Positions 8,301-64,000 of a stretch of 64,000 nt of DNA are shown piece by piece. The notes below the pieces were generated by a model, which ran no database searches, was not told the origin of the DNA, and was given only the letters and a program-made list of their open reading frames with translations. Both the position numbers and the translations under genes were made by a program. Location: positions 29,052,111 through 29,116,110 of the forward strand of contig NC_092576.1 of NCBI RefSeq assembly GCF_037975245.1, in the 5' to 3' direction. This DNA comes from Apostichopus japonicus (lineage: Eukaryota; Echinodermata; Holothuroidea; Aspidochirotida; Stichopodidae). Numbering within the stretch: the first letter of the stretch is position 1; each line of letters opens with the position of its first letter.

Positions 8301-11300
8301 ATAATTTAACTTGTACACAAAGCTAAAAATGACTGTTAATGATAATGTGCTTTGAATTACTTTTAAAAAATATACAATGCCAAGAATGTTGATAACGTAA
8401 GTTTTCTTAACAAAGATCTAGAAAATTATTTCCCAATTTGTATTGAGAACAGCCTTACCTGAAACAATAACTATAATGGCCGCGTCTAACGTTATAATAC
8501 CAATTGATATGCCATACCCGTATTCACTGGACAGAGGAACAGCAGCGAAAAGAGCGTTCACAAAAATCAAAGCGAGGGAAATGAGCTGAAAGGAGGAAAT
8601 ATGTGGAAATATAAAATAATCAGTGACTTTATATGTGCGCACTTGCTACCGTTTGTGTTCTATGTATTTCCTTTCATAAGCAAGAGTTCTTTACGAGATC
8701 TTTAGACTTTGTAGTCTCATGCGATACCTGACAATCCGAAACAGTTGAACTCGTTACAGCAGAAGCGGTCACGTGATCACTCGAAAGTGGTCATGGCAGG
8801 TCAACTGAGGGTAGTTCTAAATTTGAATTGACAATTACTACTAACTATATCACTAACATAAATGATTCATCCTACGTTGCGATACTAAACACTGATACGA
8901 GAGTTCCCGGGGCAATGCTAAATTTCAAAATGAATCACAAGCATTTATAGTTAGTTGCAACTGCTGTTTTATCAAGTGTACACTAACAGGCCAACAGTAC
9001 AAGCCCAATGTATTAACGAGCCACGATTTTAATCCATACGTAAACACCTTAAACGGTCTGGAAATAAAATCGTTCAATCTGTCAACATCCATTCAACGAG
9101 GAAATTTTTTAACACGTTCAATGAATTACTGGCTTAAATAGCTAAAATGGCCGTTACAACATGTACATCGCTTTCAATTCTGGACAAACTCACCTGTAAT
9201 CGTTGTTCAAAAGGGCTCTTCATTGGTGAAAACTTCACGTGGAGTGTGAGAAACAACACAGATACACCGATGGTAATTAACTTGGTCAGTGGATCATCCC
9301 ATCCTAGTAATGTAATCAACATTGTCTGCGTGACCTTCCTGGAAAGTTCCAGAATTTCCCAAAACCAAAATCCGGGCTTAAAATTCTCACAGAGAAAGTT
9401 CAGCCAGACGGGAATGGCATGAGTTTCGATATGATCTTTACTGTTCAATGCGACAGCTTTGCTCATGAAGTGATCTTCACTTTTGAGTTGGTGGTTGGTG
9501 TCTGGTTCTGAAAGGTGTTTGTTATCACGCTGTCTCTTGATATATGTACTCAAACAAAGTAAGAGCAATACAGGAAAAGATATAACATACAAAACAGTGG
9601 CAATAAAAGCAAATATCTGGTAATAGAAGAGATCACTACATAAAATGTCATAATCAGCTCGAAGCAAAGTAATTGTAATATCATTTCCTTTGTAAACCGC
9701 AAATGTATCACAGGCACCAGGGTACAAACTGAATATGATGTCACAAGTTGCTGGATATGTCACAAATATAATTAACAGGACACACGTTGATAGTGCAGAT
9801 CTCGTTTCGGCAAGCCTAAATGTGAGATTATGCCCATCGTAGCGTTTTTTGTACTTGAAATATACTCTAACACTTTGTTCAAAAGCAAACGCAATCAAAA
9901 TAACGACAAGGGGAAACAAGACAGCGATTTTAAATTGGAGCTTAGGATTCAATGAAAGCTTCTCGTGTAAGCAATCAGGTTTCACAATCAACTTCAAAAT
10001 GTTAAATTCAAGTACCGATATCCATTTTCCAACATAATGTAACACTCCAGCCCAACTGACACTGTGAAATGCCTCGAATAGCTCACCAACAACCTGGTAA
10101 AAACCTAGAACAATTTTGACCCTAGACAATACAATGTCTGCGATGGTTCTTCCTTCTTCTGAACATTTCTGCTTCTTGTTTTTCACGATCACAAACCCCA
10201 GGAAGAGGATGAAAATACAAACAGTCATACTGATTTCAAAACAGACCCACACAATATGTGGACACGGAAGGCAAAATCCTAAGACAGAATAATATCCCCT
10301 CACACACTTACTACAGAGCCATCCTCTGTAACCCACCGCACATGAACCAGCTATTCCATCAACTTCATAACTGTTATTATTCATACAATTTTCAGGTCTT
10401 GAACAAGCAAATACTCTGGGAATCAATTGCTTATATTCAACGGTGGATTGTTCATAATTCACATTTTCAGTTTGTAGATTCAGTACATAATTAGAATATT
10501 CCATTAAACTTGCATTGGGAAAAGTCCAATTCCAGTAATAGCCAGGTAAAAGAGCCTTGTAATCTTGAGAACAATCCAATCCTTCTTCTAGACATACTGA
10601 GCATCTCTTGAATCGATGTAAGCGAGTGAAGTTCTCTTTACAGGGACAGGCTCGGTATCCAGCGAAAGTACTTTGTTTAGTTCCTTCGGGACACAATATG
10701 CACTGCGTTGCTGACGAGCCATTTCCATTTTTAACGAAGCTACCGATATGACAGTGAAGACACGAATTGGTTCCGATATCATCTTGATAAAAACCACCTA
10801 CATGAGCAGAAGGAAGCCACCGATAAATATAACTGATCTACTTAATTCCAATGGATGTTTAAGCTATAACATAATATAGTGCAATATTTTCATATGCTCA
10901 GAAACTCGTCACCATTTAGGTTTCTTTACGTGGAAGTTGTTGACCTAAATAGTTCTAGACCTCATTTGAAGATTAAATAAGACTTAGTTTGACCTTTAAA
11001 CTTCGATTTTGGTCTGGCGGAGGATCAAAATAACACCCACTTGCGAATTTGTTTCAGCTGCCCCAGGTTACACCTCTCCTTTATTAAATCCGTAATTTGC
11101 CTGTGCTGATTCCCATAGGTCCATGGCCCATTGCTTAATCAGTCGGAGAGTTTACCCCCCCCCCCCCTCCCTTCCACCAATCCCATATTTGAAAGCCTGT
11201 ATACGCTACTGCTATACGTTAACAGTTCTTTCAGATTTCATTTACCTGCAGGGCAAGGAGTACATTGACCACTTTCGTTGCCATAGCTACCAGGGGGACA

Positions 11301-27890: not shown

Positions 27891-27948
27891 ATGATGGACG
27901 GATTGTTCTTTCTTTCACTATTCCTTCTCGTACCTGTTTTGACATGGT
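27891..27948 (+). CDS. Gene C exon 1: signal peptide
   Basis: MMDGLFFLSLFLLVPVLTW, then one base before donor gtaagt. An acceptor-like tttttccag ending at 27873 could start a 5' UTR exon 17 nt before the ATG. Confidence 0.75.
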
Positions 27949-30900
27949 GTAAGTAGCATAAATTTCTATATTATTTGATCTAATATCTATTACTTTATAT
28001 GATATATACTTTCTCATGAGGACATGAGAGTTTTTCTCGAGGTTTTTATGATACCTCCTTAGAAGCTTTGTTACTTAAATAAAAATTTATTATTTTATTT
28101 TAATAGGTTAAAAAATTCGAAAGGAGATTTCTTAACAAGTATTTCTATATATTTTTTAAAAGGTGAAGAAGTTGATGTATTGTGTCCCCAAGAGCAATCC
28201 CTGGAGTTAGGACAAGGAGGGATTGTCAACTGTTCGTTTGCGACAGGCTTTTATGGCGTATATTGGTATGATACCGATGATCTGACGTTAAGTGCATTCA
28301 TGTTTTATGCAAATGAAAACAAAGGCGGCAAAGGATACGATTCTGGGGAATTTGACATACTGCCAGATGGCTCGTTGGTCATCAATATCGTTGGTGTGAA
28401 ACATGAAATTCCTTTCACAGTTGTCTACATGAAAACCGTCCACACCATTAGTCCAGTTCAAAAGAAAGTACAGCTCACGGTAATTGGTAAGGAAACGAAA
28501 ACATACTTCTTTGCTTACAACCTTCATCTCATATTAATCTGCAGTAACCTTCGATTTTTTTTTAAAGAGCGAATGCAAACAAAGTACCTTTTGCAAATAT
28601 GCATAGGCAATATATTATTATAGGTATTATGAATATCGCAATATAAAAGAGACACAATCTGCGTCAAAAATGGCATTATTATTGTTACTTATTGAACTAT
28701 TTGGATACAACGGTTATTCCAATTGTGTTTATTAGGATACAGCAGTTAGTATCATAGCTTTTCGTCTACAGCTGTTGTTGTTTAAGATTGTATATAACTT
28801 AATTTTTTTCAGCTCATCCGTCCCTTCCTCATCCGCAAATTGATAGATGTGATACTACTCAGTACTGCTTCACGGAACTTACAGCAGATCCTCTTCTGAT
28901 TTGTACTGTCAGCGGTTCCAGACCAGCTATTCCCTTAAGTTGGGCGGTAAGAACCTCTGAAGGCGATCGTAACCTCACCACAGAGGTGAAAAGAGAACAT
29001 AGTAATGGTGTGTTCAGAACGATCGCGAAGTTGAAGTACCAGCAGTTATCACTTCATTACCATCTCTTTGTGTGTAAAGCAAATGACAGTAATGCACTCT
29101 TAACAGCCTCTGATTCATTTGTGTTGATAGAAGTGGCTGAGACGGAAGTCGATTTCCTCAACTTTGTACTTCCTATACGGGCAAATGCAGGCGATGTAAT
29201 AACATTGCCCTGTCCTGGTGAGAACAAGGTTATTTTCGTTTGGAAGAAGATGCAATCTGTAAACGACTTTGTGGTTATTGCCCACGGATACTCGGAGGAG
29301 CATTCTAGTCTAAACCAGCAATATAGTGTAAATAACGAAGGTGCATTGAACATAACGTTCGAAGATAAACATACATGCATTTATATCTGTCACAGCAGTA
29401 ATGGTATTCAGGAACTCGTAACAGCGTACAACGTGACACAGTTGGGTGAGTTTCATTCTTTTTATGTACTAATATCTTTTTTGTATCCAATTGCATGTTC
29501 TATAATAACACCATTGCTTTATCAATTCCTTATTAAATTGTTCAATATAAATATGCATACCACACGAAGCATGTCTAACGACCAATAAAAGGAAGGATTC
29601 TACCCAACATGATATAGTCTTCGATACCATTTACGAGACGAAATTGATATATTTTTTGATACCACAGGTCACAAAAAATTACCATTATAACAGTAAGGTA
29701 TTCTGAACGATAGTTCTACCTGTTTTAAATCAAAATCCTAACATTGTAGATATTCCTTTATCTTTCTGTTATAATCCTCTGCTAGTTCAAACAAGACAGT
29801 GATAAGTTTTGGAAATATAACTTGGTCTTTTTATCTAAAGATACACGAGGTTCCAAATAGGAGTACGAAGTTCTCGATTTCACTAATTTGGTGGATAACA
29901 ATGGCTTTATAATAACTAAGAGTGTGTCTTCATTGGGTTATGATTATTATCAAAAATAATCTGGACACCCGACTACCTTCTGATGCACGTACAATTGGTC
30001 TCAATAAGATATAATATTCGAATTTCACGATTAGTGTCAATGTAACTTGTGTCACAGAATATTTCAGCTCAACATGTCCACATCTGGCATCTTCGCTGTT
30101 ATTTAAGGTTTATTTTTGGTTTCATGAAAACATATTGTTTTCCGTGACACAAAATTTCGTTTCTATATTTCAACTACTTTATCTGCGCGCATGACACAAC
30201 GATGGTTACAAATTACAATTACAAAGTACAAATTACGAATGGGAATTTTAAACGCAGACATATTTTGATGATTTGCTGTTACTGTGATTATGGTGACGGG
30301 TTTTTATTTTGTAACAGATGCAGAGAAAACTAACGTTAATGTTCTGGTAATTATTTTACCGATAGTAATATTGGTTATCCTTGTGCTGTCAGCGGTTGCA
30401 GGTAATGTATGCGAACACAAAGGTATTAGTATATACTAACTCATTTAATATTCATCATCATCATCATAGAAGATGCTGGCGGTCTTCGAACGGCAAGCCA
30501 TATAACTTGAACGGAAAGAAACACCCTAATCCCGAATCGGGTACGTCCTTATCTGTAATCTCATCGCTACTTAATTCCATTTTATACGACAATATTTATA
30601 CTAACGTTATCAGTGACATCCTTTGTAATGAGGCTGACAGTCCTAATTTTTCGAACCCTTGTTCTCGTTGAAAATTATGAAAATTTTCAATTTCAATTAC
30701 GGGGAGTTACCATTAATTATTCTGAACAGAAAGTTAGAGACATGCATTTTAATGAAGAATCTCCAATTCTAATGATCTCCAGTTTAGAACAGCATACTTT
30801 TTTGTGTGTATCGGTCGAGGTCCGTTCTCCTTTAAAAAACTGCTCAGAATCAACTACTTGTATATCACTACTACAAACTTCATAAGGTTTTGGGCAAAGT

Positions 30901-33900
30901 AGGCCGAAGAATGCAACAAATATATAAAACTTGTGAAACGTAAAAAGGCTCACAACACTTTTTTCAGCTTTCAAATTGTAATGGTTCAGTTATTCATGAA
31001 AGTATCGATATCTTAAACTCAATACAACATGATAAAGCAACTGGTAGTAATGGTTTCTCTGCTAATATTTTGAAGCATTTTTGGTCTTTGATCAGGCCTT
31101 TTGTTGTATACTCTTTAAATTGTGCCTATTAGAGGGCTGTCCTTTCTCCGGAGCAACCCCTTGGGTGATGACTCTTATTCCAAATCCTAGAATATATTCG
31201 ACTGTTTAAATAAAAGTATCGTCCTATTCCTGTGTTTGAGGATTGACTACATATTGGGGCAAAGTCAATTGCCAATAGTTTAAAATGGTTTATTTAGAGA
31301 ATTATCGGCCCTTACCAGACTAGTTTCTTAAAAATGACAATTTACTGATGAAGAAATAAGATATGTCCTAGATAAAATAAAACGATCGACTATTATTAAT
31401 CCAATAAGCAACGATGACTTAAAGAGTACTCATATTATCATTTCCACTAATAGTTTAAGGTAGTACCAGGATCTAACGGCATTGCAATGCTCCTAACGGG
31501 CCTTTGAAATGATTTCTATGGTTTCAGTTTAAAAGTAATTGGACGAAAATATATTTTCAATTGGAATTGTAACTCAAAAGATATAATGAATATCAAAATG
31601 ATTTTCTTAGACATGTTCTGTATGCATGGTGTCCGTGTTCTCCTTACACAGTCCTTCGGGATAATTATGACATGCAAATTATTTGGAATATTCGTGTAAA
31701 CGACGAAATTATCTTTAATCTTTCTAATTACTCATCTTTCTAGTTAACGCATCAGTATGTTAAAGTTTTTTCGACAACAAGGGCAATCCATTAACGTTTG
31801 TACCAGCTTCATCATTTATCCGTCACTTTACACAGGAGCTCAATATAGTATAGTCTTATCAAGTGGTGGGAATCGACTTCCGACCATATGAGATAAGAAA
31901 GTGTAATGAAGATGATGCTGCAAAAGTGTTCAATTCTAATAGTATCTCTCATTTATATACTTATCGAAAACTATTGAAATGTATTACAGCCACGCCTGCA
32001 GCGTCTCGAAAATGACAAACCTGGTTTATTACCATCATAACGAAAGATTGGTCACGTATTAACTATGCTCTTTGGCAATTACTTTCCGATTCCAAAATGC
32101 AGTATTTCAAAACAGATTACTCCAAAGAATTCTCCTTACCAAAGAATTATGGGTTAACTTGACATCCATGACTAATGTTTGTGAGATTGGTGAAAGAACC
32201 ATAGATGACTTATTTTGGGGATTGTTCGTTTCTTCTAGTTTTATATTAGACGCTAGTTATGTTTTTTTTTTTAATAAGCAGTTCGTTTTTTGAGACGTGA
32301 TTATTTCTTCTGTTACACTCATTCGTGTCATCCGTTGCCTTCTTAACTTTACACATGTATTGGATTGTAAATTTCAAATAAAATATCAAAGGAAGCCCTC
32401 CATTAACCTTTTCTTTTAATATGAAGCATGCATTTTGAAAACTTTCCAGATTTCAAACAAGCTTTTGCGCCATGTCCAAATCTTTTAAATTAAGTGCATA
32501 ATTTTTGTTTTAGCATCGTATGAATGTTACATTATTATTTGCTAAACATTTGTCATTTTGTTATTTGTATGTCATGGTCATTAACATCGAACATTTCTTG
32601 CAAATAATGTATTTTTCCGCGGCTACATAGTCAGAAAGCAGCTTTCTTTATTCCAACCATAAGGCTGTTTGGGAATTATTAAGAGTACATACCAATGCAA
32701 GATATATACATTTTAGATTTCCTGTTGTTCTTTTTAAAGTGGCTGTATTTAAGAAAAGAGATCGGACAAAGCAAAATAGCCTCGAGTGCACAGAAGAATA
32801 TGGTATGCGAGAAATTAAGTTCTTACTGTTTTCTATTTCAATTCTTAAGACGTGTACTTACTCTCCAAAAGAAACATTTAAAAGCCTAATGTGAGGTTAT
32901 ATAGCAGTGAAACTTATCAGGAAGCACTTTCAGGCGGCCATATGGCAAGGGAGAAGAAGTAAAGTTATCTATAAACCTGGTTTAAGTTTTCTCTTATATT
33001 CCTTCATGAATAGAAATAATTAACTTTCAGTAAATTATATGTTTACATGATTCATATATGTTATTACTGTGAAGGAGTATTAGCTCCGTCATCTCTTTCT
33101 TTATAGTGTTCGCCACTGGTTGTAGTTGTTTTATCCTTAAGTACCGTAAAAAAGTCAAGAGAGAACTAATCTACTCATGTTATCAAATTTTACCAATTAA
33201 ATTGCAAAATTAAGCAGTCGTTTCTTATTAATATGTGCGGAAATGGCGTTTTTACAATAAAAATTCGCATGTCCAATTTGCCGAGTGGTTTTTTTGTCAA
33301 AAACGTTCAAAAAGGAATGTTTTTCTTCCAACAGAAACTATGAGGAGTCCTGAAAGAAAAGACGGTTTCACAGAAGAAGAAACACCACTGACTTCAAGTA
33401 AGTACAAATTATACTTAATCTCTCACACCTAATAGATAGTAATAGAAATTAAGTTGTTTGATAAATTTTAAAGTACAGCATACACTGACACGAGCGTTCA
33501 GCATTTCGGAATATTGGAAGTACTCTTTTTCACAGTATTGCAATTTGGTATCAATATCACGCAATATGATATTACTGCATCAAAAATTGTCATCGTACAT
33601 GAAAACAAATCAAGGAACTGTCTTAAACGCATATTTATATTTCTCTTAACCGAGTGGTTTTTCGTCAAATTCGTTCTAATAGGAGTGTTTTCCTTCCAAC
33701 AGAAACTGAAAGAAAAGACAGTTTGACGAAAGAAGAAACACAACTGATCTCAGGTAAGCACAAATTATACTGTATCTCTTTCACCTACTTGATAGTAATA
33801 GAGGAAGATAACAAAATTTATAAATTATAAGTTGTTTGATGAATTCTAACTTACCGCACACACTGGACACGAGCATTTCACATTTCGGAATATTGAAAGT

Positions 33901-36780
33901 ACTCTCACAATATTAGAATAGTATTGTATTTGTGAACATATATATATTAAGAACAAGAACAAGAAGTTATGCAATTCCGTATCAATATATCACAATATGA
34001 TATAACTGCATCAAAAATTGTGATCGTACATGAAAACAGATCCAGAAACTGTATTAAACGCATTTTTAAACTTGTGCTAATAGCGAACATTTGAGCGAAC
34101 ATGAAGGATATTGAATTTTTTCTGTATTGATGCTTCGTTTCATTATAAAACTAATTAACTTGGTCTTCCTTAAAATTGCATGTTGCCTAGCGAACATGAG
34201 AAAATCGTATTAGGACTGAAATTGAAGCTTTTGTTTTAGCTCCAGATTGAAAGATTTTTTAAGTCGAATTTCAGTAAATCTCATGAGTTTATCAAATTGT
34301 TGAATCATAGTGGGCCATTAGCACTTGAAACAAAACATGTTGCCAGACTTTCATCAAGGAAATATTTATTTGGGCCTCAAGGGGTTGAATGGAGGTACCT
34401 AACCCCCTTAAACCATCCACATCTAACGGGTAATAACGGGTACCATATCTACAAAAGAAATTAAATCCTCTTTTATGGATGTTTTCTGTGCTTTAATGTT
34501 GCTATTAGAGCACACGAAGTATCTTTAAACCTGAAAAGACTTCTCGAGCTTCTCCTTTGCCATCCAACAAGGGTTTTAAATTAATTTGCAAACAAAATTT
34601 TACTTTCTCTCTATCATGTATGTTTGTACTTAACACTCGCTACAAGAAGAAATATGTGAGATATCAACAAGAAACAAACAATCTACTGCGGCTATAAGAG
34701 ACATACCAGCGGTATTTAAGTTTAACTCCTTTTTATTACGAAGGTGAACGAGAACGAAATAAATGAAGTGTTATTTCTGGGGCCCCCTGCAATCTCGGCC
34801 AATACCAGTGCACAGTTATGCTTGATGATTGTTTCGAGAAGTTGCTCATGCATAGTCACTGCAGTAGAAAGAGAGCATCAACATTCCTCTTGATAAAATA
34901 TATCTTTCTAGTGATAACCTTTTGTTAGAAATTAAACCTTTTGTTAGAAATTAAATCAAAAAAGTTTGATTTACCGAAAGAGCGCGAGGAGGACGTAAAC
35001 TTTAGATGTTACCGTGATGTATATTCAATAGATGTGCGTTTATATGGGTAGAACATATGTCTTATTCTTCCCTGACAGTATGGCCAGTCTGGATGTTCCC
35101 TAAACATAACATAAATCTATAAGATCCTGTTTCTCGAGAGAGTAATATTTATACATAACATAAACATATTGCATGTACCTCTCTTGATCACTATAAAGCT
35201 AAATGAAATCGCACCACGATGGAATTTCCCTTCTCCGATTACAACTGATGATTAATTAGGCAAGAATGGAAACATTGCTTAGATTACGTGAACAACTTAT
35301 TTCTTTTAAATGATATTATCCACTACTGTGGTTATGGATAATGGCAATGTTGTAAGTGGGCTCTAGTCAATTAACTTATCATGCAAATTCAAATGCTTTC
35401 TTCAGAGGAACATTAGGAATCAAGGACGACGAAGCCCAACTATGCTCATGTTATTTCACGTTACTTATAGTACACATAAATGTGAAATGCTAAATCCTTA
35501 AAAAAAAAAAAAGAGATGTAACGATGACAAGTTACCCCCTGTATGTTATGGAATTGCGATACGTCTTTTCAATGAAGTTGACTTTTATCGAGACCCTCCG
35601 CTTCGGAAAAGATATAATTAATTTAATGATCACACCTATATCATTACCAATCAGAAAATCTTTAATACAATGAATTATCGTACCTTACTTTTGATCTTTT
35701 GTCCTGTTTTTTATTACATTGCAGTTTTTTATAATCAACAAATTAATTTCATTGTTTGCAGCAAAAGAAGACACACCTGGTGTATCTGGTAATCAAGAGA
35801 TTTCTTTTAAAGAAATATGTAAGAAATATAATCTGGATGAATGGAAAACTGGTTTAACAAAGCAGATTAACGTTTCTGAACTACTACATTCCATCCAAGA
35901 TCCAAGAGACCCAATCAAGGTTGACTTTGCTAAGTATATTCTTCGTTTCTTTCATCGCGATGATGAGATAAAAAAAGAGATATCAACAACTCAAGTGAGC
36001 TACAAAGATATACTGTATCTTTTATTCTGTTGTTGTGACGGAAATCTCAGAGTGAAAATAATGAGCGTGTTAGCCTCAAAGTTCTACGCAGTTCCGATTA
36101 TTTTTGCAAAGCCCGATGACAACGGTCGCCTAACATATTTAACATATGAGTTGGAAAACCTAACAGTTAAGTATGGCGCGGATATGGAAAAAGAAGCTAC
36201 GATATCTTCGCCAATGTTCACAATCGCTGCCTTGCAGTACGGGGAAACGTCTGTTTCTAAATCGAAAACACTTGATATAATATTCAAACGAGTTCAAGGA
36301 TCGCGAAATGAGCCGTTTGCAACAGATGTGGAATCGAAAGTTTCAAAAGGAACTATACAGACTGCCTGGTGTGTTCCAACTGAATCGTCCACAATTAAGC
36401 AAACAATGTGTTTCGTAAACCTCCAAGGATCAGTCAAGTTAGACCAAGAAACACTAGAAGAAAAGGCACTTTATAAACTGGCTTCTTGTGTTGTTGTATT
36501 TGCAAGCCCTGCAGAGAAACATTTGATTCAACCCAAAATTAATGAACACTTTAACAACAAGTATGTTTTTTGGGTCACATGTCCCTTGGATCAAACAGAT
36601 TCTAATAATGTAAAGATTCAAGAAGAAAAAAATAAATCTATGACAATAACTGGTAGCAAGGAGTATACCATAATAGGGTATCACATTTTCGATAAGGTCC
36701 AACAATTAGTTTCAATAGATATGGAAGTATTATGCAAACCTAATAAATTGGTATCACTTATTGATAACTCAAGTGAGTAA
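27891..36780 (+). CDS. Gene C: Ig receptor with a cytoplasmic URGCP/GVIN-type domain (8 exons)
   Basis: Eight plus-strand exons (27891-27948, 28163-28486, 28813-29445, 30318-30401, 33107-33145, 33335-33397, 33703-33753, 35762-36780) add to 2271 nt, or 756 residues. Every intron is phase 1, as in vertebrate Ig receptors. Order: signal peptide (1-19); Ig-like domain 1 (20-127); Ig-like domains 2 and 3 on one exon (128-338); transmembrane helix (about 345-370); juxtamembrane linker rich in E, K and T (380-417); and a domain of about 340 residues matching the N-terminal part of the URGCP / very large interferon-inducible GTPase family (leucine/cysteine-rich LFCCCDGNLRVKIM, FYAVPIIFAKPD, SVSKSKTLDIIF). 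No GxxxxGKS GTPase motif follows. It could be a surface receptor with an internal adaptor-like domain. The joining of the last exon is inferred from phase and needs transcript proof. AATAAA follows at 36810-36815. Confidence 0.65.
28163..28486 (+). CDS. Gene C exon 2: Ig-like domain 1
   Basis: 324 nt, phase 1 to 1, acceptor aaag and donor gtaagg. It encodes a V-like fold: VNCSF, VYWYD, DGSLVINIVG, then FTVVYMKTV. The usual second cysteine (YxC) is absent; an extra cysteine sits near the N terminus (VLCPQE). Confidence 0.75.
28813..29445 (+). CDS. Gene C exon 3: Ig-like domains 2 and 3
   Basis: 633 nt, phase 1 to 1, acceptor tttttttcag and donor gtgagt. Domain 2 has LLICTVSG, LSWAV and HLFVCKAN. 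Domain 3 has ITLPCPG, FVWKK and CIYICHSS. Both keep the cysteine pair and the core tryptophan. Confidence 0.8.
30318..30401 (+). CDS. Gene C exon 4: transmembrane helix
   Basis: 84 nt, phase 1 to 1, acceptor acag and donor gtaatg. It encodes DAEKTNV, then the helix VLVIILPIVILVILVLSAVA. Confidence 0.75.
30402..33106 (+). mobile_element. Dead L1/Tx1-type LINE in gene C intron 4
   Basis: From about 30960 to 32450 the plus strand carries broken reverse-transcriptase pieces in order: a DKATGSNGFSANILKHFW motif (near 31030-31090), LSPEQ (31144), a NRPL-like segment, IIGPYQTSFLK (31300), a CPCSPY motif (31635), and a C-terminal LLQRILLTKELW with a DLFWG motif (32110-32225). Many stops and frameshifts interrupt it. 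The first 550 bp and last 650 bp of the intron hold nothing that I recognise. Confidence 0.7.
33107..33145 (+). CDS. Gene C exon 5: helix end and stop-transfer
   Basis: 39 nt, phase 1 to 1, acceptor ttatag. It encodes VFATGCSCFILKY. The donor is ccgtaaaa. A later possible donor (33179) would create a TAA stop with the next exon, so this one is chosen. Confidence 0.5.
33335..33397 (+). CDS. Gene C exon 6: juxtamembrane mini-exon (first twin)
   Basis: 63 nt, phase 1 to 1, acceptor ccaacag and donor gtaagt. It encodes TMRSPERKDGFTEEETPLTS. Confidence 0.65.
33703..33753 (+). CDS. Gene C exon 7: juxtamembrane mini-exon (second twin)
   Basis: 51 nt, phase 1 to 1, acceptor ccaacag and donor gtaagc. 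It encodes TERKDSLTKEETQLIS, a copy of exon 6; the flanking introns are also alike. Confidence 0.65.
33754..35761 (+). other. Gene C intron 7
   Basis: About 2 kb. The first 350 bp resemble the intron after exon 6 (part of the mini-exon duplication). The rest holds nothing that I recognise except a short direct repeat (ccttttgttagaaattaa) near 34918-34955. Confidence 0.6.
35762..36780 (+). CDS. Gene C exon 8: URGCP/GVIN-type domain
   Basis: 1019 nt, phase 1 in, acceptor tttgcag, stop at 36778-36780. It encodes KEICKKYNLDEWKTGL near the start, then DILYLLFCCCDGNLRVKI, FYAVPIIFAKPD, PMFTIAALQYG, SVSKSKTLDIIF and KGTIQTAWCVPT. This order and spacing match the segment before the GTPase domain in vertebrate URGCP and GVIN proteins. 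A strong donor (aagtgagt at 36771-36778) overlaps the stop, so an alternative longer form is possible. Confidence 0.75.
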
Positions 36781-36809: not shown

Positions 36810-36815
36810 AATAAA
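36810..36815 (+). terminator. AATAAA polyadenylation signal of gene C
   Basis: AATAAA 30 nt after the stop codon of the last exon, in a plausible position. Confidence 0.5.
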
Positions 36816-39261
36816 ACCATTCCTAATTGGTTTTCTTACTCCCTGTATTCAAAGATAGTGTGTTAATTGAAAAAAAAATGAGGACTTACATTTACATTAC
36901 AATGTCTCTCATGGAAATAATCGGTATAGCTTAGGTGTGGTTTTTTAGTTTTCTTCCGACATTAGCTTAAAATGTTGTTTCATTTTTTCTGCGCTGGTTT
37001 GTGTATATCTGTAAAAGAACGTTGCTTTGTATCGTTAGTTTTTACGTTACTTTTCGCATTAAAACATCAAAATATGGTTATCTGGCGTTAATAATAAATA
37101 CGTTTTTGTAACTGTGATTATCGAGGAGAGAGTTTACGGATGATAAAATAAGGTATTAGTTATCATTGTAGGGAAAAGGTAACCTTTGTGCGATTGGTAA
37201 TTAATTGATGAAATACACCAAGATACTTGTACTATACATGTTGTTGATATCGCATAAAGTGTGATTAGGGTTTTACCGTATATTGTTGTAGAATCCAAAT
37301 CGTGGACAGAGACAAAATCTAGAGGGATAAAGCCATTAATTTTAAGTAAAAATACATGTGTTTTCGTTACCATGACAATGATATTGTAAACTTCAATAAA
37401 AGCAATATGTTCACTTCAACCCAAGTAGTGTTTGTGTCTCAATTTATAATCTTTTGCTTAACCGACATAAGTTTTCTACGGAAACAATTCTCTCGATTTT
37501 AATTCGATCTGTAAGCTCTTTTCTTATACGTGACCCAAATAGGCTCCGTTTTGACAAAACAAATGTCAGACAAGAGCCTAACAAATTTCGATAATACTAT
37601 ATAAGGAAATTGGGTCATAATCAGTAACTAGGAAGAGGTGATCTATGATTCGAGAATCATTTACTATTACACAGTTGCATTATTCTGCAGTTCATCAAGG
37701 ACATTTAAGTTGAACAAGTATACAAGTCTCACCATTATCATGAAATATTTTATGAAGAAATTTTTAATTTTTAATTCTAATTTGATTAATAAAATCATTG
37801 AATATATCTGTCATACCATTTGCTTCACATTCATTTCATAATTACTTGGTTTGCCTATAAAACAAGTGGTATTTATGTGTTCATTGTGTGATTCAAAAAC
37901 ACCTGAAGTGCACGTTGTACAATAATAACACTTAAATATTACGCTCTAATTGACAGTTATACAATGGCGATAATTAAAATAGCGATTAACATATCCATAA
38001 TATATACATATATCGGCGATCAAAACAAAAACAGATCAATCAACCTGCCGTAAGTCACTGCAATCTCGCAAATCAGCCGATTGAGAACTTATGAGTTATT
38101 GCCATTGACCAAACGATTCTTGGACGGAAAAATCTAGAAAATTCAAGAAAATATCTGAAAAATAATCCAATTCTCAAAAGCTGCTAATCTAACAGAACGC
38201 AGTAAGTCGCTTTGACTTCACTGCCATAACAGTTAAGGGTTGAACATCATCAGCAAACAATCTTCAAGTCATTGGTTGGCTAGGTTTCTGTAGGCCTATA
38301 GAGACACTTCTCAATCGTTTACAAGCAAATCACTGCTGAACTGTTTCTGAAAAGACAATACAGAACACGACTTCCTCAGAAAAAAATATCGTTTTGAAGC
38401 GATACAAAAATTGGAATTTGAGAAGTTCCATTTTAAACGATTAAATAATGTACAGCACGTAGCTAATCTTCAAATTACAATATGAGGCACTCTAAAAGAC
38501 ACTAAAAAATATTATTTAACACGTTCAAATGTAAAAAGTACGATTGAAAACATAGTAAGAATATATCTCAAACAAAGGAATGCTTTTCTGTCTTTGCACC
38601 ATTTTGTAATCTAGATGTAAGAGCGAGTCTGACGGGATCGGTTGAAGGGGGAGGGTGATATCGTGATATATCCCGTATATTTAGAAGCTATTAAGTTGTC
38701 TGTTTCCTTAATTAAGTTCAGTGAATTTGAACGAGCTTAGCAGAAACGTACCAAGTACCAAGATCATCGGGAAATCTTCTTTCCTGAGATAACTTCAAGC
38801 CTACGGTCTAAAAGCTCGAACTTATTACCTTCCTTGCGAATATGGACTTGTTGATACCAAGGCCTACTGTCACAGCGTCTGACCACATTTTATTTCACGG
38901 CTTCCACCAGAGCGCCCGCTCTCTAGTACTTCAGTTGACGATTTTATAAACGTTACAAACAATGACAATTTTGGCTTCACAGCAACCCCTTATTGCAAAG
39001 AAATTATTTAGGTAAATTAAAATGCAAAGGTTTCATAAGGTCATTTTAAATTACCAGTAAGCCTTTTCTCTACATCCCTTCACTCTTTTCATATATTGAC
39101 CAGCGTTTTAGTGTAGCTAACTAAGCTAATCAGTCACATAAATATGTCAAAGTTGAAATTTGCTGTTCATTAGTCGGGTGACGATGCAGACTGAACTTTC
39201 ATTTTGATTTGACTGTTCAGGAATCAAGTTCTCTTTTGTTATCTGTCCAATGCTGATTACC
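36816..39261. other. Intergenic region between genes C and D
   Basis: No coding or repeat feature recognised. The last 160 bp before gene D resemble the sequence before gene E (about 53020-53110), so they may include its promoter. Confidence 0.5.
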
Positions 39262-39592
39262 ATGGAAAAATACCTAGCCATCATCGTGTTTCTCGTGAAT
39301 TTAAAATCATCACATGGAGTCACAATTACCCCGTCTGATTTGATTGTATTAAAATCTTCTTCGCTGAAGATGGCATGTCCACTGGACGATCATCATCGTA
39401 CATCACTAAAATGGGAATTTAATGGTAGACCGTTATTTGTGAACATGGTGAACATTGGTCAAACGGCAAAACACCAAATTAATGCTGAAAGTTATTCTCT
39501 GACTATTGAAAATGCTACTTCTAGTGAAGAAGGTCTATACAGTTGCAGCCAGAATGGTTCTGTAATTGTGTCGTATAATGTGGATGTTGCAG
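39262..39592 (+). CDS. Gene D exon 1: signal peptide and Ig domain
   Basis: 331 nt, donor gtgagt, phase 1 out. Leader [19 protein letters not shown]. The Ig domain has LKMACPL, LKWEF and GLYSCSQ, so the cysteine pair and tryptophan are present. Confidence 0.85.
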
Positions 39593-42500
39593 GTGAGTTT
39601 CAGTAACACTTTATGATGTATTTTCTCTGATGATATTTATTAAATGTATTTCTATTTTAAAAGACATACGTCTTTACAAGTCACATTAAAACGCTACTGA
39701 CTTACTACCGTAAATTACACTAAACTATTCACGTGACTATTTTACTCCAAGCGTGACACTAATCGTTCGCAAACCAGTTGCAGTGTCTGAAAAGGTCATT
39801 ATTACGTATTAGACTACATGGATATATTCCTGGTATTGGGTATGGAAAGAAAATGGAACTGCACCAGACATTCGAACCAAACGATATCAAAACTGCAGAC
39901 CGTGTTTTCTTTTGCTTACCATAGGCATCTGTTTCACAGATATAATCTTTTCAAGAGGCGTGACATTTCAGGTCGCAGTAAAATACATTCATTTCTAAAT
40001 ATTTCACCGTTTCTGCAAATGCGCCGTGCGTTCGCTTCTCAAAACAATAAATACAAAAACACATTTTCTTCATGGATGAATTATCACCGTGTGATAATGA
40101 CAGTGCAAAAAAAAAATAATCCCACCCCTTAGACACCCGCACACACCAAACCTACAATTACATTTTTTGACAATATGTATCACCGAAAAGCACTTTTAAT
40201 TAAAAGTGTAGGTTAAGAGGTAAACTACATACAAGACAACTTTTTTTCGGATTACACATATTGCCTACTTATATGTTTCTTATATGTGCTTCCAACCTAT
40301 CAAATTCTGCATATTTGAAAGTGCCAGTACTGGATCCGTGATCTTGAAATTGTGATACACTTCATTTATGCGGTTGCGATGTGGCGATATCTTTGAGGGA
40401 TGACGTGTACATCTAAGGAAACTATTTTTCTGTTTTCTTTCAAATGGAACTTCAATAGTCGATTCAAACGTGATAAGCGGAACGACTCTGTCTGCAGTGA
40501 TGACTGAGGCGACAAAAACGTGTGAGTTAACGTTTGATAGTAGTAATATAGTAATATCATTTATCTTGCCACTATTGTAAAGTAGAGATAGCTGTTAAAT
40601 CAATTCAAATCAGATTTACATTATATTCCTGAAGTTTAATTATTGTTATTCAAAAAAACAAACATTGAGAACAAACAATTTCATCAAAGAGAACCGCAAA
40701 GTATTGCATTGGAAAAACTCCTATTCTCGCCTGAATTATTGGTCAACCTGTTTTATTTACCTCATTGTATTATATATTCCATTATTCTTTTATCCACTAT
40801 GTAATACAATGTTTGCCTGTATTGAACTTCTTCGGCTGTACAATAAACGTCACAGTTCAGATAAATGTAAGACTTTTTTTGCCATAAGTCGGCTAAGACA
40901 GACAGTTGTCATTCGTTCCGTTCGCAGTTTTGTTCCATAAAAAGAGAAAGGGAGTATGTTTTCATGCTTTTTACTAAACAGCATTTTCTCCAAGGATAAA
41001 TGTATTACGTATTGATCATGTAAAACACGACGAGAGAATACCCCCACCCCCCCCCCCCAAAAATGCAAACATTTAATATTTATCTTCAACCATGTAATTT
41101 CAATATATATATATATATATATCTATTTATAAATTAAAAAGTTGTCCTTCGTAGTCTTTGAAGAACCATAAGAAAACAATGAGTATCACATAACAGAAAT
41201 GTTTGTTATTAATAATAATATGGATCTGCTTAAATGAAGTTAAATTTACATCTACAAAGAAATACGGTTATTATGTGTTTCTTGTACTTACGAAACGTGC
41301 GACCGATATTACAATTATAAACATTGTAATTTCATTCCCTTAATGTGGTTGCTCTATGGCGACATCTTTGCGCAACGGCTTTATTAAATACATTTCAAAT
41401 TGAATTCCAACAGTTGATTCAATTTCTGCGGTAATGGTTAACACGACAATCACGGGTGAGTGAAAGATATCATGTACGTATACTGCATTGATACATAGAA
41501 ATTTGAATATATGAGTATATAGATATATTTATATATAGTACAGCAATACAGTTGAAGTATATATGCGTGAAAACAATGATGGGTAGAAACATTGTGACCA
41601 TTTATGAACGAAAGTCTAAATTGCGTTCGTTTGACAAACTGTACCTTCCTGTGTAGGCCACAAAATTTATAAGAGATATGTACCTTAGCTCTTAGCTCAA
41701 CACGTCATGTCCTATCGTCTCTGTTACTTACTGCAGTTTATTTTATGTGCATTTGAAATTTATATTATGATGCATCTCAGTTTTGGTGGTGATATGAAAT
41801 CTAGTAGTATGAAATTTGACATTTACAGCGTGCGTGTGACTTACTTATTTTACTGACGGTAGTCGCTGTTTCGACGTTTATTATGCCGTTAATTGTTATG
41901 TTGCTTCTTTATCTTTTTACGTCAGCATGAATGTTTCACAATACTCCTTAAAATAACGTTTTTTTCAGATTCTCCACTACAGCATAACCACTCGCTATCT
42001 GCCTTTGTATGGTCAGGTGTCATACTTATTATTATTTGTTGCTGTATTGCTGCTATAGCTTTTGCTAAGAAAGGTAAATATTCTAGATACTGTATACATT
42101 TCTATTACCTTTCATTTTCTTAAGACTGGAGTAACCTCAAAAACGTGTTCTGTCTCAATGACATACAGTACCATCACTTGAGTTAATATTTGCAGCATTT
42201 GGGATATATCATAGAAGAGTACCATTTTTGCAAAACAATGAAGACATAAACATGTAAAAATCATAAAGAAATATAACCAGTTTTGTTGGTTTACTTATTT
42301 TCAAGGATATTTATACCTGTGTAAATTTCATTTGCGTAAAGCAAATTTTTTTGGCGGGGTACTGGTTAAACTAAACGTGGAAACGCAGTCTATAAATTTA
42401 AACCATCTCAAAACGGAAGAATGTATATAGAATTCTCATAAATTATTTCTGCTGGTATTCAGCTCACATATCAGGAAGGCACATGGGTGGTCTTTTGAGG

Positions 42501-53019: not shown

Positions 53020-53875
53020 AAAACCAGGTGACGAATCAGACTGAGCTCTTATTTTGGTTTGGGCGTTCACTAATAAAGTTTTTGATCGCTTGTGACCAAT
53101 TTAATATACCATGGAGACACACTTAGCTATCATCATGTTTCGCGTGATTTTAAAATCACATGATCGTATTAAAAATGTTATTCTCTAAAGATGGAATTTC
53201 CGGTGGACAATCACCAATGCACCTCAATAAAGTGGGAATTGAATGGTAGGACGGTATTTGTAGACATGGTGAAGATAGGTCAAGAAATGTATTCTCTGTG
53301 TATTGAAAGTACTTCTTCTGAAGAAGAAATCTATACAGTTGCAGATGAAAATGGTTTTGTAATCACAGGTGCGTATCCAGGGGGGTCGAAAAAAGAAAAA
53401 GAGAGTAAGAAAAAGAGTAAGAAAAAGAGAAGAAAAAAGGAAAAAAGGAAAAAAGAGGGGGAAAAGAAGAGGAGGAGAGGAAGGAAGAGAAAAGGAGGGA
53501 GTAAAAGAAAAACGCGAAGACACCGGGAAGAGAAAGAGGAACAGTGACATCATTACAGCGCTGAAGGGTAGCCAGTGACGGATCAATGATTTCGTTAAAG
53601 TTTGACTCACCCTACCCCTTACACCGACAACTCCATTTTTGACGTTTCCATTTTCCTCTCTCACGAATGATCTATATATATACTATATATGGTCTATCAT
53701 AACGCGTGTGTAGAATTGTGCTATGAAACCAACTGTGGCTGGTCTCGAACTCGACCGTGTCGTCGGGGAATATGACGATTTTTGGGATGGGGGCGACCGC
53801 CCGCCCCCTCCCATTCAGCATTGTTTTAAATGATATCGCTAAGTAATTTCAAAATAGAAAGTGCTTAGATGCAAC

Positions 53876-60660: not shown

Positions 60661-62246
60661 CTAGAAACAAACAACATGGAAGCAATAATGCACTACTTAA
60701 AGCATGTGTAACAAACTAGCGATATGTTACAGTTAAATATATTCATTTCAAAACACCCTGCAGCGTAGGAAAAGTAAAACTTAGAGATGTACAACAAGTA
60801 TTTAAGTCTGATTTCCGGACGCATTTGAACACACTCATACTCTAGGTTTTAACTTATTATTATTTATCAGCCATAAAACTCGTTATTGGTATATAAATAG
60901 TAATACTATTGTTGCCTGTGATGATACTTCATGGTATTTCATAAGTTGTTTCTTTTCACTACGGCATACAAGTAAATGTTATCACTTTACAGAACATCAC
61001 CTTAACATTATACATGTCATGGATTATGCACGTAAACAATACTGAGGTATTTACTTAATGTTCCCTTCATGTAAGTCACATTTTAATGTTCAATTCGTAC
61101 AAATAAAGGTGTCTGACATATAGGTGACAAATATTCCGGCAACTGCTGACACGGTTAAGGTTCCGACATATCTCAAAGGCAGTTTCCGACACTCATAGCT
61201 AGAATGGTTGTTGGCAAATTTATTTTTTCTTTGTGGCCAATTATGTTGTTGAATGTTTAATAAAATTTGCTTCATGAAATTGTGGAATCATTGTACAGCG
61301 TACTTTCAGAAAATTGAATAATCATCTGCAACTGCATGTGAATATGAAGGGAATTAAGGACAACATCCATTGTAAAAACACTTACTTCCATTGTATCCAT
61401 GATGATTACATGCATTGCCCTGGGAATCAGCAAACCTGAACCGGAATCCATTGTAAATTCCATTTCTGTGGGATGAGCTGTCGTGCCGTCGTTCGCATCC
61501 GTGTTCCAAAAGAAACGTAGTATAAAATCTGATAACAGAGTTGATTGCTGCTCATGATAGCGTGCGATGCGATCGACGGCTTCTTTAACAGTGACGGGAG
61601 CAAATGTTTGAATAACTTCATCTCGGTTGTCGGGGTTGTTGTGCATTTGCTCTAACACGTCCTCTGCTACTTTGGACAAGTTTTCCATGATTGCGAGCAA
61701 ATTCTCTACCTTATCTGGTAAGGGCTCAAAAGCAACCTGGAGGACACTAACATCGTGTTTGATCTTATTCAGACTTCCTATTTTGTCACCCATGGCTTCA
61801 GTTAGTTCCGTATTATGAGTTAGTTCCGTATTATGAAATCTTGTTAATTGTGCAAGAATATCACTCAGTTGCACATATAGCTGAACTAATTTACCCATCG
61901 ATTTCCCAAGCCTCAAATATTTAAGAAATATTATGTCCAAGTTTCTCCGTATGGCCTTTTTGCCTTTGATATTGACAACAGTGGCCCCTATAGAGACGGT
62001 AGCGCCAGACAAGCTCAGCGTTACGCCGATCGCCGTTAGTGCAATGCTTGTGCCGAAAGTGAAAGGTGCAAGTACAACTCCGACTATAGTTGCAACGCCT
62101 CCAGCGACACCAGCTGTGGAACCAACTACTTGAGATATATTCAAATTCTTTGCAAGCTTCTGAACATTTTCCTCCGATCTTAACATGGTTTCGAGATCAT
62201 CATTGTTGAACAGAATCAATGGAGAATGCCTCCAAATACACATAGC
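60343..62246 (-). CDS. Gene F: apolipoprotein-L-like protein (5' end not found)
   Basis: Two minus-strand exons, 61386-62246 and 60343-60660, join in phase 0 and give at least 392 residues. The first has an amphipathic start (LETMLRSEENVQKLAKNL), then the glycine/alanine-rich hydrophobic hairpin characteristic of the ApoL family (VVGSTAGVAGGVATIVGVVL, then APFTFGTSIALTAIGVTLSL), then long helices. The second begins IAMDLADDVFLTAAESLKV and contains IFIDVGVLTKSLIDLSNGSK, which matches the C-terminal part of ApoL proteins. ApoL proteins are membrane-inserting and are linked in mammals to innate defence and lipid handling; the role here is unknown. An acceptor just before 62246 means that at least one earlier exon exists. 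Confidence 0.75.
61386..62246 (-). CDS. Gene F exon with ApoL hairpin
   Basis: 861 nt, acceptor acag, donor gtaagt (complement of 61380-61385), phase 0 out. It contains an in-frame 18-bp tandem duplication (61801-61836) giving HNTELTHNTELT. Confidence 0.75.
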
Positions 62247-64000
62247 CTGTATGAATAAACGAACATTGTGTTAACAGTTACATCACATATATCAATACCA
62301 TTCATGACATACCTATAACAAATAAGACGAATAGACGAATAGAAATACATTAAAATGTACTCAAATACCCATCAATTTATAACTGAGCTATTTCATCGCG
62401 CATGCATTGCAAGCTTAAAACCTTAACATAGCAGCCGTCTTTGAAATATAATGTATGTATATTGATGTTTTCTTTAACAGTCTTTTCATATCTTACAGCC
62501 TTTTCTTTTCATTGTGCTTTGTTTATTTGGTCTGATCTTCTTATCGGTCAAATGTTTCATTATCGTCTCTCACATTTGTCAATTTACTTTGTTTTCTGCG
62601 TTTTCGGTTTGGCCTATTGCTTTTAGAAATATAACAAAACAGGGTTTTTACAGTAGATGAATAGTATTTTCTTCTATTTATTTCATTTGAAAGTTATAGC
62701 AATTTGAAAGCTGTTCCTATTCTAATTCATAAGACTGTGCTATCATGTTGTGCATGTTATAGGAGCCAGATTTGATAAGTATGTTTACCACTTGGAACAA
62801 TTGATTTCGTTTCTCACCATATTTGTGATACATTGTGGTGGTCCATAAATATTGTCGACAACATGACCCTATAAAGTTTGTCAATGCTATCACAGATGCC
62901 TGAGTGTTGCTTATGTAGCGGCAAATATGATAATTATAATGGAGGCAATAATGCTATCATGGTTTTTGAACAATAACCACAAAATGATGAGTTTCATTGC
63001 GAGTTCTGTACAGCAGCGGCGACAGTTAATATGATGATTGCAGTAACAGCATTGTCTATAATTGTACATTACATAGATGGTGTCGACCTGTCGTTAATTA
63101 CATTTGAAAGTGAGATAAAACATTCCAAAATACTTGCTTTTATTTGCTGGAAGCAATCGTTACATCGTTGGACCACTTCTGCTTCTAAAAGAACAGATAA
63201 AGCATCGAAAATAAACTATTTATTTGAAGTCCGATCGTGTTGTAATTATTAGATCTGTATCACCAGTTCGTTTCTCCTGTATTAAACATATTCAATAGCG
63301 ATTTGACAATCCAAAGAGACAAAATAGATCGTACTATATCCCATTTACAGTATAGGAGTGCACTGTGACGCTGTATATTGACGGCTGGAATTGTGCTATC
63401 AGAATGCGGAGAGTGTCTATCATACACGATTTTACAGCTAATCAACTTTCCGCTTCGCTGTCTCAAACGCGTATGGATTAATTGATTATTGAAGGAGGGT
63501 GGTTATTGTATACTGGAAATATTACCAAAATTGCAAAACCTCTCTCAGAATGTGCACTCCTGGATAATCCGAGCAAAGTTGTGGTCTTAAAGCGATTTCA
63601 CCTTTAGGTCCATTTTTATTTATTTTTTCGCGGGGAAGGGGTTAATGATTCAAATAGATTAAATATTGCTAAGAAAGGTAACTGCGATTTCTCAGGTGCT
63701 TCACCACAATAATCGATTCATGATGTAAATAGCATAATAGAGAGTTCGGGGAACTCAACACAATCGATCCTCTAGAATTTTAAGTTTCACCTAAGCGGAT
63801 TCTTCCTTCATAAGATCGTTAACTGTCACAACTGTACAGGCGAATCTATACTACCATACCGGTACTATACCGCAACTTCATTGCTCCAACTGCCTACGGA
63901 TATAATACAGAATATCAGTACCTAATAGACGGGCCTCTTAAATAAATAATGTATGTATCATTTAAGTACCTGTAGCCAGTGGCAACCTGTGTTGAAATAT
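62247..64000. other. Upstream side of gene F
   Basis: No supported exon. A missing 5' exon of gene F should lie here or beyond the window. Confidence 0.5.

Follow-up and report, generated by a model that had tools for sequence, protein, structure and literature searches.

We report a gene of the sea cucumber Apostichopus japonicus in which an immunoglobulin (Ig) ectodomain and a transmembrane (TM) helix are followed by a URGCP domain (PF25496), a domain shared with the giant GTPases of the URGCP/VLIG/GVIN type. The gene lies on the plus strand at positions 27891-36780 of the analysed window, i.e. the whole stretch of 64,000 nucleotides at C16:29052111-29116110, where C16 is contig NC_092576.1 (46,036,110 bases) in the searched genome of 671,581,487 bases and 35 contigs. 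The order of its domains and the open frame that joins them, a second copy of this order, the family to which its ectodomain belongs, the variety of tails found in that family and the lack of a GTPase match are read directly from the sequence. We propose, with a probability of roughly one half, that it encodes a type I surface receptor of the Ig family, which would have gained its URGCP tail by exon shuffling, would use it as a docking surface and would function in phagocytosis.

The gene comprises eight exons and is followed by a candidate polyadenylation signal:

27891..27948, plus strand: exon 1, start codon and predicted signal peptide (from hydropathy and an upstream in-frame TAG)
28163..28486, plus strand: exon 2, Ig domain 1, V-like (paralogous exons at most 50% identical; V-set 14.1 bits, below the cut-off of 26)
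28813..29445, plus strand: exon 3, Ig domains 2 and 3 (from the family alignment and Ig profiles)
30318..30401, plus strand: exon 4, predicted TM helix (mean hydropathy 3.48 over 19 residues)
32740..32802, plus strand: exon 5, juxtamembrane linker
33335..33397, plus strand: exon 6, linker mini-exon
33703..33753, plus strand: exon 7, linker mini-exon, by alignment a tandem duplicate of exon 6 that includes the intron flanks
35762..36780, plus strand: exon 8, predicted cytoplasmic URGCP domain (PF25496) and stop; core at 36004-36657, with no URGCP_GTPase match after it
36810..36815, plus strand: AATAAA, candidate polyadenylation signal 30 bases past the stop (sequence match only)

Every intron of this model has AG/GT borders and lies in phase 1, and the joined exons read as one frame of 764 residues, closed by a stop and free of internal stops. 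Upstream of the first ATG there is an in-frame TAG, whose first base precedes the ATG by 9 bases. An earlier note on this stretch, made from the letters alone, had described seven phase-1 exons coding for a signal peptide, three Ig domains, a TM helix and linkers, followed by a large open exon in the same phase with no early ATG; the coordinates, borders and phase are all confirmed, and the first Met of the large exon is its residue 101. The mean hydropathy of 19-residue windows exceeds 1.6 for those starting at residues 1-5 and 340-356, and also, by a bare margin, for one that starts within the tail domain, at residue 523; this pattern predicts a signal peptide and a single strong TM helix. 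The ectodomain contains five NxS/T sites. Several short linker frames resembling exons 6 and 7 were also seen by eye in three related loci (L005-L007; L numbers denote fetched loci).

The only Pfam domain found in exon 8 is PF25496 (E 1.4e-20, 74.3 bits against a cut-off of 27, in a tail of 339 residues), which bears out the homology to the pre-GTPase region of URGCP and GVIN proteins that the earlier note had recognized from the order of motifs. One reading frame of the exon is open and the remaining five carry 11-34 stops; at the local stop rate, 340 open codons would arise by chance with a probability of ~8e-10. Across the genome, 63 of the 67 PF25496 matches, some of which are pieces of one gene, are followed on the same strand, within 6 kb, by a match to PF25683 (URGCP GTPase), as counted with 68 of the 80 PF25683 matches. 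The PF25496 matches with no such neighbor are the window gene, C16:29316566-29317354 (paralog A), C16:29303563-29304324 (paralog B) and a partial match at C17:36161221-36161643. Three of these four are thus C16 loci, and C16 carries no PF25683 match. A tree of 14 URGCP domains, composed of the three C16 copies and 11 chosen GTPase genes, separates the window gene, A and B from the GTPase-gene domains (support 96/95), the window row being very long. The 80 PF25683 matches themselves lie on C1, C3, C4, C7, C9, C17, C20 and C21 and represent a large expansion of giant GTPases of the URGCP/GVIN type.

The Ig-TM exons and the URGCP exon are likely to form one gene, a conclusion supported by paralog A (C16:29322893-29316485, minus strand), a locus ~230 kb from the window gene which repeats the order of signal peptide exon, Ig exons, TM exon and URGCP exon with phase-1 borders. 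The fusion that had earlier been deduced from phase thereby gains the support of a second locus with the identical domain order. Six of the seven exons of paralog A join into one open frame with a single stop at its end; the first-Ig exon lies outside this join, and by eye its border after CCCACAG fits phase 1. A scan for hydrophobic starts gave three candidates for the signal peptide exon, of which the nearest was taken. In the model the TM exon runs straight into the URGCP exon with no linker exons, one further candidate exon between the two being left out. The URGCP exons of both genes have EDTP within six residues of the acceptor, albeit a short match.

Paralog B is the next URGCP gene after A, ~12 kb on along the same strand, with its URGCP frame at C16:29304714-29303476 (minus). 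Its DED-like exons end in phase 1 and its URGCP exon begins in phase 1; hence, Ig genes could take up this exon by shuffling into their phase-1 introns. The tails of A and B align over ~362 residues at 30% identity (E 1.4e-44), and we infer that a B-like GTPase-less URGCP gene may have been the source of the receptor tail. Outside C16, inspection of two lists by eye found no URGCP match within 1 Mb of any listed double-Ig match. The region of paralog B (L001:1476-4467 and L002:8-325, minus; C16:29303476-29312325) consists of the GTPase-less URGCP gene after three mutually similar DED-like exons. When the three frames were tested, one reached PF01335 (E 2.6e-4, 21.6 bits, below the cut-off of 35.9), and this exon, L001:4033-4467 and L002:8-325 resemble one another. 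The frame L002:498-893 was considered as a further DED and rejected, as it matches none of the three.

The ectodomain belongs to the Ig superfamily, an assignment that is weak from the window alone and clear from its family. The window Ig exons alone give C2-set_2 at 20.0 bits (cut-off 21), which, like the V-set score given above, is below the cut-off. Among 12 aligned exons of the double-Ig kind, the other 11 match Ig_3 at E<=0.01 and the C and W columns are invariant; a profile built from all 12 hits Ig proteins with solved structures, Contactin-1 being the best (whole-sequence E 2.5e-11). The genome holds 150 scored matches to the double-Ig exon, its own included (150 scored of 282 candidates, a few being pieces of one gene), and 109 of them are on C16. 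For 40 of the 150 a NACHT match lies <=20 kb downstream on the same strand (39 different NACHT matches), as against 1 upstream, and 0 and 0 on the opposite strand, in the controls. This is an undercount because the NACHT list covers only 106 scored of 488 candidates and lacks L008-L010; within that list the window has no NACHT. In five of eight further family members that were fetched (L008-L012), a large NACHT-like exon is present within 10 kb: the Pfam scores are 52.8 for L008, 54.8 for L009 and 67.9 bits for L012 (cut-off 26.7), the NACHT of L011 is present in the genome list, and that of L010 was identified by eye. The window gene accordingly shares a homologous Ig ectodomain and TM helix with NACHT-tailed relatives in the same genome.

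The closest relatives by ectodomain carry yet another tail. A large GTPase-like exon lies downstream on the same strand in all six that were examined, namely the five best-scoring (C16:29204038, 29267492, 29154308, 28612705 and 28541587) and 29278609, which ranks lower because its double-Ig exon is split. This last copy may be broken, as it also has a stop in its first Ig exon, and its tail frame is open. The tail exons are:

L004:8827-9999; L005:5349-6845; L006:6160-7695; L007:6602-8083; L027:5585-7144; L028:3487-5058: AIG1/septin-like tail exons

The P-loop and the DTPG motif are intact in the L027 and L028 tails. The L028 tail reaches AIG1 at 35.7 bits (cut-off 27); that of L027 scores 23.6 bits, below the same cut-off, and has Septin and MMR_HSR1 above theirs. 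The L004 tail has a damaged P-loop, and those of L005-L007 have lost both P-loop and DTPG, all of them remaining homologous; such tails can hence persist without nucleotide binding. Pfam gave nothing over cut-off for the L004-L007 tails, and a PDB sequence search with the L004 tail returned a single row at E 0.65. The idea that these are unknown domains was nevertheless rejected, as a search with L004 hits the L027 and L028 places (6.7e-21 and 7.9e-21, respectively), and L005-L007 match the set of L027, L028, L030 and L031 with 98.7% probability and E 4e-16. Four tail pairs have ratios of nonsynonymous to synonymous rates (dN/dS) of 0.62-0.78; the upper 95% bounds, 0.93-1.24, exceed 1 in three of the four, implying that constraint is weak or evolution fast. 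The tails of L005-L007 (494-512 residues) stay open at pairwise dS of 0.10-0.19. Taken with the NACHT-tailed sisters and the URGCP receptors, these tails suggest a family with interchangeable signaling ends drawn from immune nucleoside triphosphatases (NTPases).

The histories of ectodomain and tail appear to differ. In a tree of 15 chosen double-Ig exons, where paralog A is a long row, the window gene clusters among the GTPase-tailed receptors (93/93) and A falls in the NACHT-tailed group (86/87); by eye, A also has the extra pre-TM Ig exon of the NACHT receptors. A single origin of the Ig-URGCP receptors by simple duplication was rejected, as a clade of the window and A ectodomains fails the approximately unbiased test (p 0.0034), whereas a placement of A inside the wider ectodomain group of the window gene is not rejected (p 0.061). 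In the URGCP tree the branching order among the window gene, A and B is weakly supported (65/38). Since the two ectodomains are not sisters, the URGCP tail was acquired twice or swapped; it has thus probably reached two receptor lineages by one of these routes.

Among the alternatives to a receptor with a docking tail, one would divide the locus into a short-tailed Ig receptor with exon 7 as its last exon and, apart from it, a gene for an intracellular URGCP protein of which the first exon and the start were missed. Paralog B, a GTPase-less gene with DED-like exons, shows what such a gene might look like, no Ig exon having been noticed between B and A; moreover, AATAAA/ATTAAA words lie within the 2 kb intron, which makes a short receptor isoform possible. 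But the first Met of exon 8 falls inside the URGCP domain, two of the three DED-like exons of B searched against the window gave no match (best E 1.2), and in the model of A the repeated order joins the TM exon straight to the URGCP exon; these three points argue for a single gene, and we regard the division as quite improbable. Somewhat easier to entertain, though still unlikely, is that the URGCP exon is a passenger, either decaying or without function, in a receptor that works by its ectodomain alone, as a decoy or in adhesion. The window URGCP domain is indeed the most divergent of the 14 (end branch 3.1), and its alignment covers positions 4-232 of the 299 in the PF25496 profile, leaving the final 67 unmatched; the lost nucleotide motifs and the dN/dS bounds of the GTPase-like tails point the same way. 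Against this stand the open frame of exon 8, so improbable in random local sequence, the equally open tails of L005-L007 and the PF25496 score well above cut-off.

The tail might instead be an active module that binds and hydrolyzes GTP for signaling, a role also conceivable for the AIG1-type tails of L027 and L028. URGCP domains share a motif, GDxxxSK[ST]xxLN, reminiscent of a P-loop, and an hhalign comparison of the 14 URGCP domains with 10 of the 11 GTPase domains (L025, with no standard P-loop motif, was left out) places this stretch on the true P-loop. However, the alignment is confined to those 24 columns (E 0.007, probability 5%), SK[ST] replaces the GK[ST] of the G1 motif GxxxxGK[ST] in all 14 domains (12 SKS, 2 SKT), and PDB searches by sequence gave no solved relative; we consider this reading very improbable. 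A tail that serves as bait, mimicking URGCP/GVIN or NACHT proteins and sensing their attack by pathogens like the integrated decoys of plant NLRs, would account for the use of several immune NTPase families as tails of one receptor family and for the loss or damage of nucleotide motifs in four of the six GTPase-like tails examined. No pathogen factor is known, though, and the idea is an analogy with plants only (PMC4246468); we give it little credence. Returning to the receptor with a docking tail, several observations weigh against it. The extreme divergence and partial profile match mean that the window tail may be decaying or newly functioning. The idea that the URGCP domain itself has a GTPase-like fold draws on the low-probability 24-column match and on the possible identity of PF25496 with a GTPase domain of human GVIN1 discussed below. 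The PDB sequence search with exon 8 found no match and that with the URGCP profile nothing beyond weak rows that look like chance, the best (E 0.077) being a designed protein; a single-sequence AlphaFold2 model of exon 8 alone has a mean predicted local distance difference test score of 33.4. Three of the eight further family members (L013-L015) have no large tail exon within 10 kb, the NACHT match of L015 being 12.8 kb off. Finally, part of a 2026 report on AjNLR-new, a related sea cucumber protein, gives it the reversed topology, with NACHT outside and Ig inside (PMC13133943).

In the working that we propose for the window gene, the product would sit at the cell surface as a type I receptor and belong to a large Ig family in which many members end in NACHT. 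Its URGCP tail exon would derive from a GTPase-less URGCP gene nearby on C16, brought in by exon shuffling at introns of phase 1. On coelomocytes the Ig domains would bind a microbial or altered-self ligand, and the ligand would cluster the receptor and so lead to uptake. The tail, probably a docking surface and not an enzyme, would gather intracellular giant GTPases of the URGCP/GVIN type, or cytoskeletal partners, at the site of uptake. The source of the tail, the surface location, the ligand, the expression and the docking of GTPases are all what we infer, and the phagocytic role and the formation of a coat are borrowed by analogy only, from AjNLRC4 and human GVIN1 respectively. AjNLRC4 of A. 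japonicus, with Ig-like, Ig, TM and NACHT regions, is, in the part of the report drawn on, a coelomocyte membrane receptor that binds Vibrio through its Ig part and beta-actin through its tail (PMC8699970); an excerpt of a later report has its Ig part binding caspase-1 after internalization (PMC11932488). For human GVIN1, the portion of a preprint used here describes the coating of bacteria, and an AlphaFold3 model with two large-GTPase domains and predicted dimerization through them (PMC11974893). If the first of these domains corresponds to PF25496, as it may, cytosolic URGCP/GVIN proteins could pair with the receptor tail and so be brought to engulfed microbes; the URGCP/GVIN-type proteins of this genome number dozens. 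A broader version, which we advance tentatively and regard as rather doubtful, is that an Ig-TM module has been plugged by phase-1 shuffling into NACHT, AIG1-like (often pseudo-GTPase) or URGCP tails, all acting as platforms to which the cytosolic originals (NLRs and the GTPases of GIMAP-like and GVIN-like type) are recruited once a microbe is engulfed; the coat-forming, cell-autonomous immunity of such proteins would then be wired straight into recognition at the cell surface.

Other features of these loci are as follows. After the URGCP receptor, at 39208-39606 of the window (plus), there is an Ig exon (Ig_3 31.6 bits, cut-off 30) with a possible signal peptide by eye, and 53173-53547 (plus) is apparently a degraded copy of it. 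The window also contains a 332-residue Apolipoprotein L-like frame at 61272-62270 (minus; PF05461, 43 bits, cut-off 25.9) and, at 9134-10837 (minus), a cysteine-rich open frame of 567 residues with several hydrophobic stretches by eye and a weak Ephrin_rec_like match below cut-off. The strand of paralog A carries, upstream of that gene (L003:3962-6864 and L029:2007-3840, minus; C16:29325962-29335840), pieces of a protein kinase (PK_Tyr_Ser-Thr 29.8 bits, cut-off 23.1) together with Ig frames (C2-set_2 at 27.8 and 20.1 bits against a cut-off of 21); these may make up a kinase-tailed Ig receptor. Between the DED-like exons of paralog B sits a non-LTR retrotransposon (L001:4714-9359, minus) with an endonuclease/reverse transcriptase frame of 1149 residues by Pfam and an additional frame of 410 residues with zinc knuckles by eye.

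The architecture that the earlier note regarded as new is so in part. Within the open-licence PubMed Central literature, searched by titles and the starts of abstracts, we found neither URGCP joined to Ig or TM, nor, outside the papers on sea cucumbers, any Ig receptor that has a GIMAP or NACHT tail; the wider kind, Ig-TM with an immune NTPase domain, had already been published with AjNLRC4 (as given in part of PMC8699970). Thus, Ig-TM-NACHT is known, and Ig-TM-URGCP and Ig-TM-AIG1-like were, as far as searched, not found. AjNLRC4, as described in that part, has the layout of the NACHT-tailed relatives reported here, i.e. two Ig-type domains, TM and an immune NTPase domain, its kinship to our receptors being one of layout and not of sequence alignment; its tail is NACHT, whereas that of the window gene is URGCP. 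AjNLR-new, likewise a membrane protein of A. japonicus, contains Ig, TM and NACHT together, with coelomocyte levels that rise after Vibrio infection according to the excerpted report (PMC13133943), and it too carries NACHT and not URGCP. The AIG1-type domain of GIMAP GTPases ends the close relatives L027 and L028, and not the window gene. Since the kind of ectodomain stays constant while the tails run through NACHT, AIG1-like and decayed GTPase forms, these relatives constitute a natural series in which the role of the tail can be tested by exchange. With the giant GTPases of the URGCP/VLIG/GVIN type, which combine PF25496 and PF25683 and are described as intracellular, the window gene shares PF25496, but it has no PF25683 match and has a predicted signal peptide, Ig domains and TM helix. 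According to part of the 2025 preprint, no function had been reported for any GVIN before the coating of cytosolic bacteria by GVIN1 (PMC11974893). If our proposal is true, a GTPase-less URGCP surface receptor would separate the role of the URGCP domain from GTP hydrolysis and would link surface recognition to giant-GTPase immunity.

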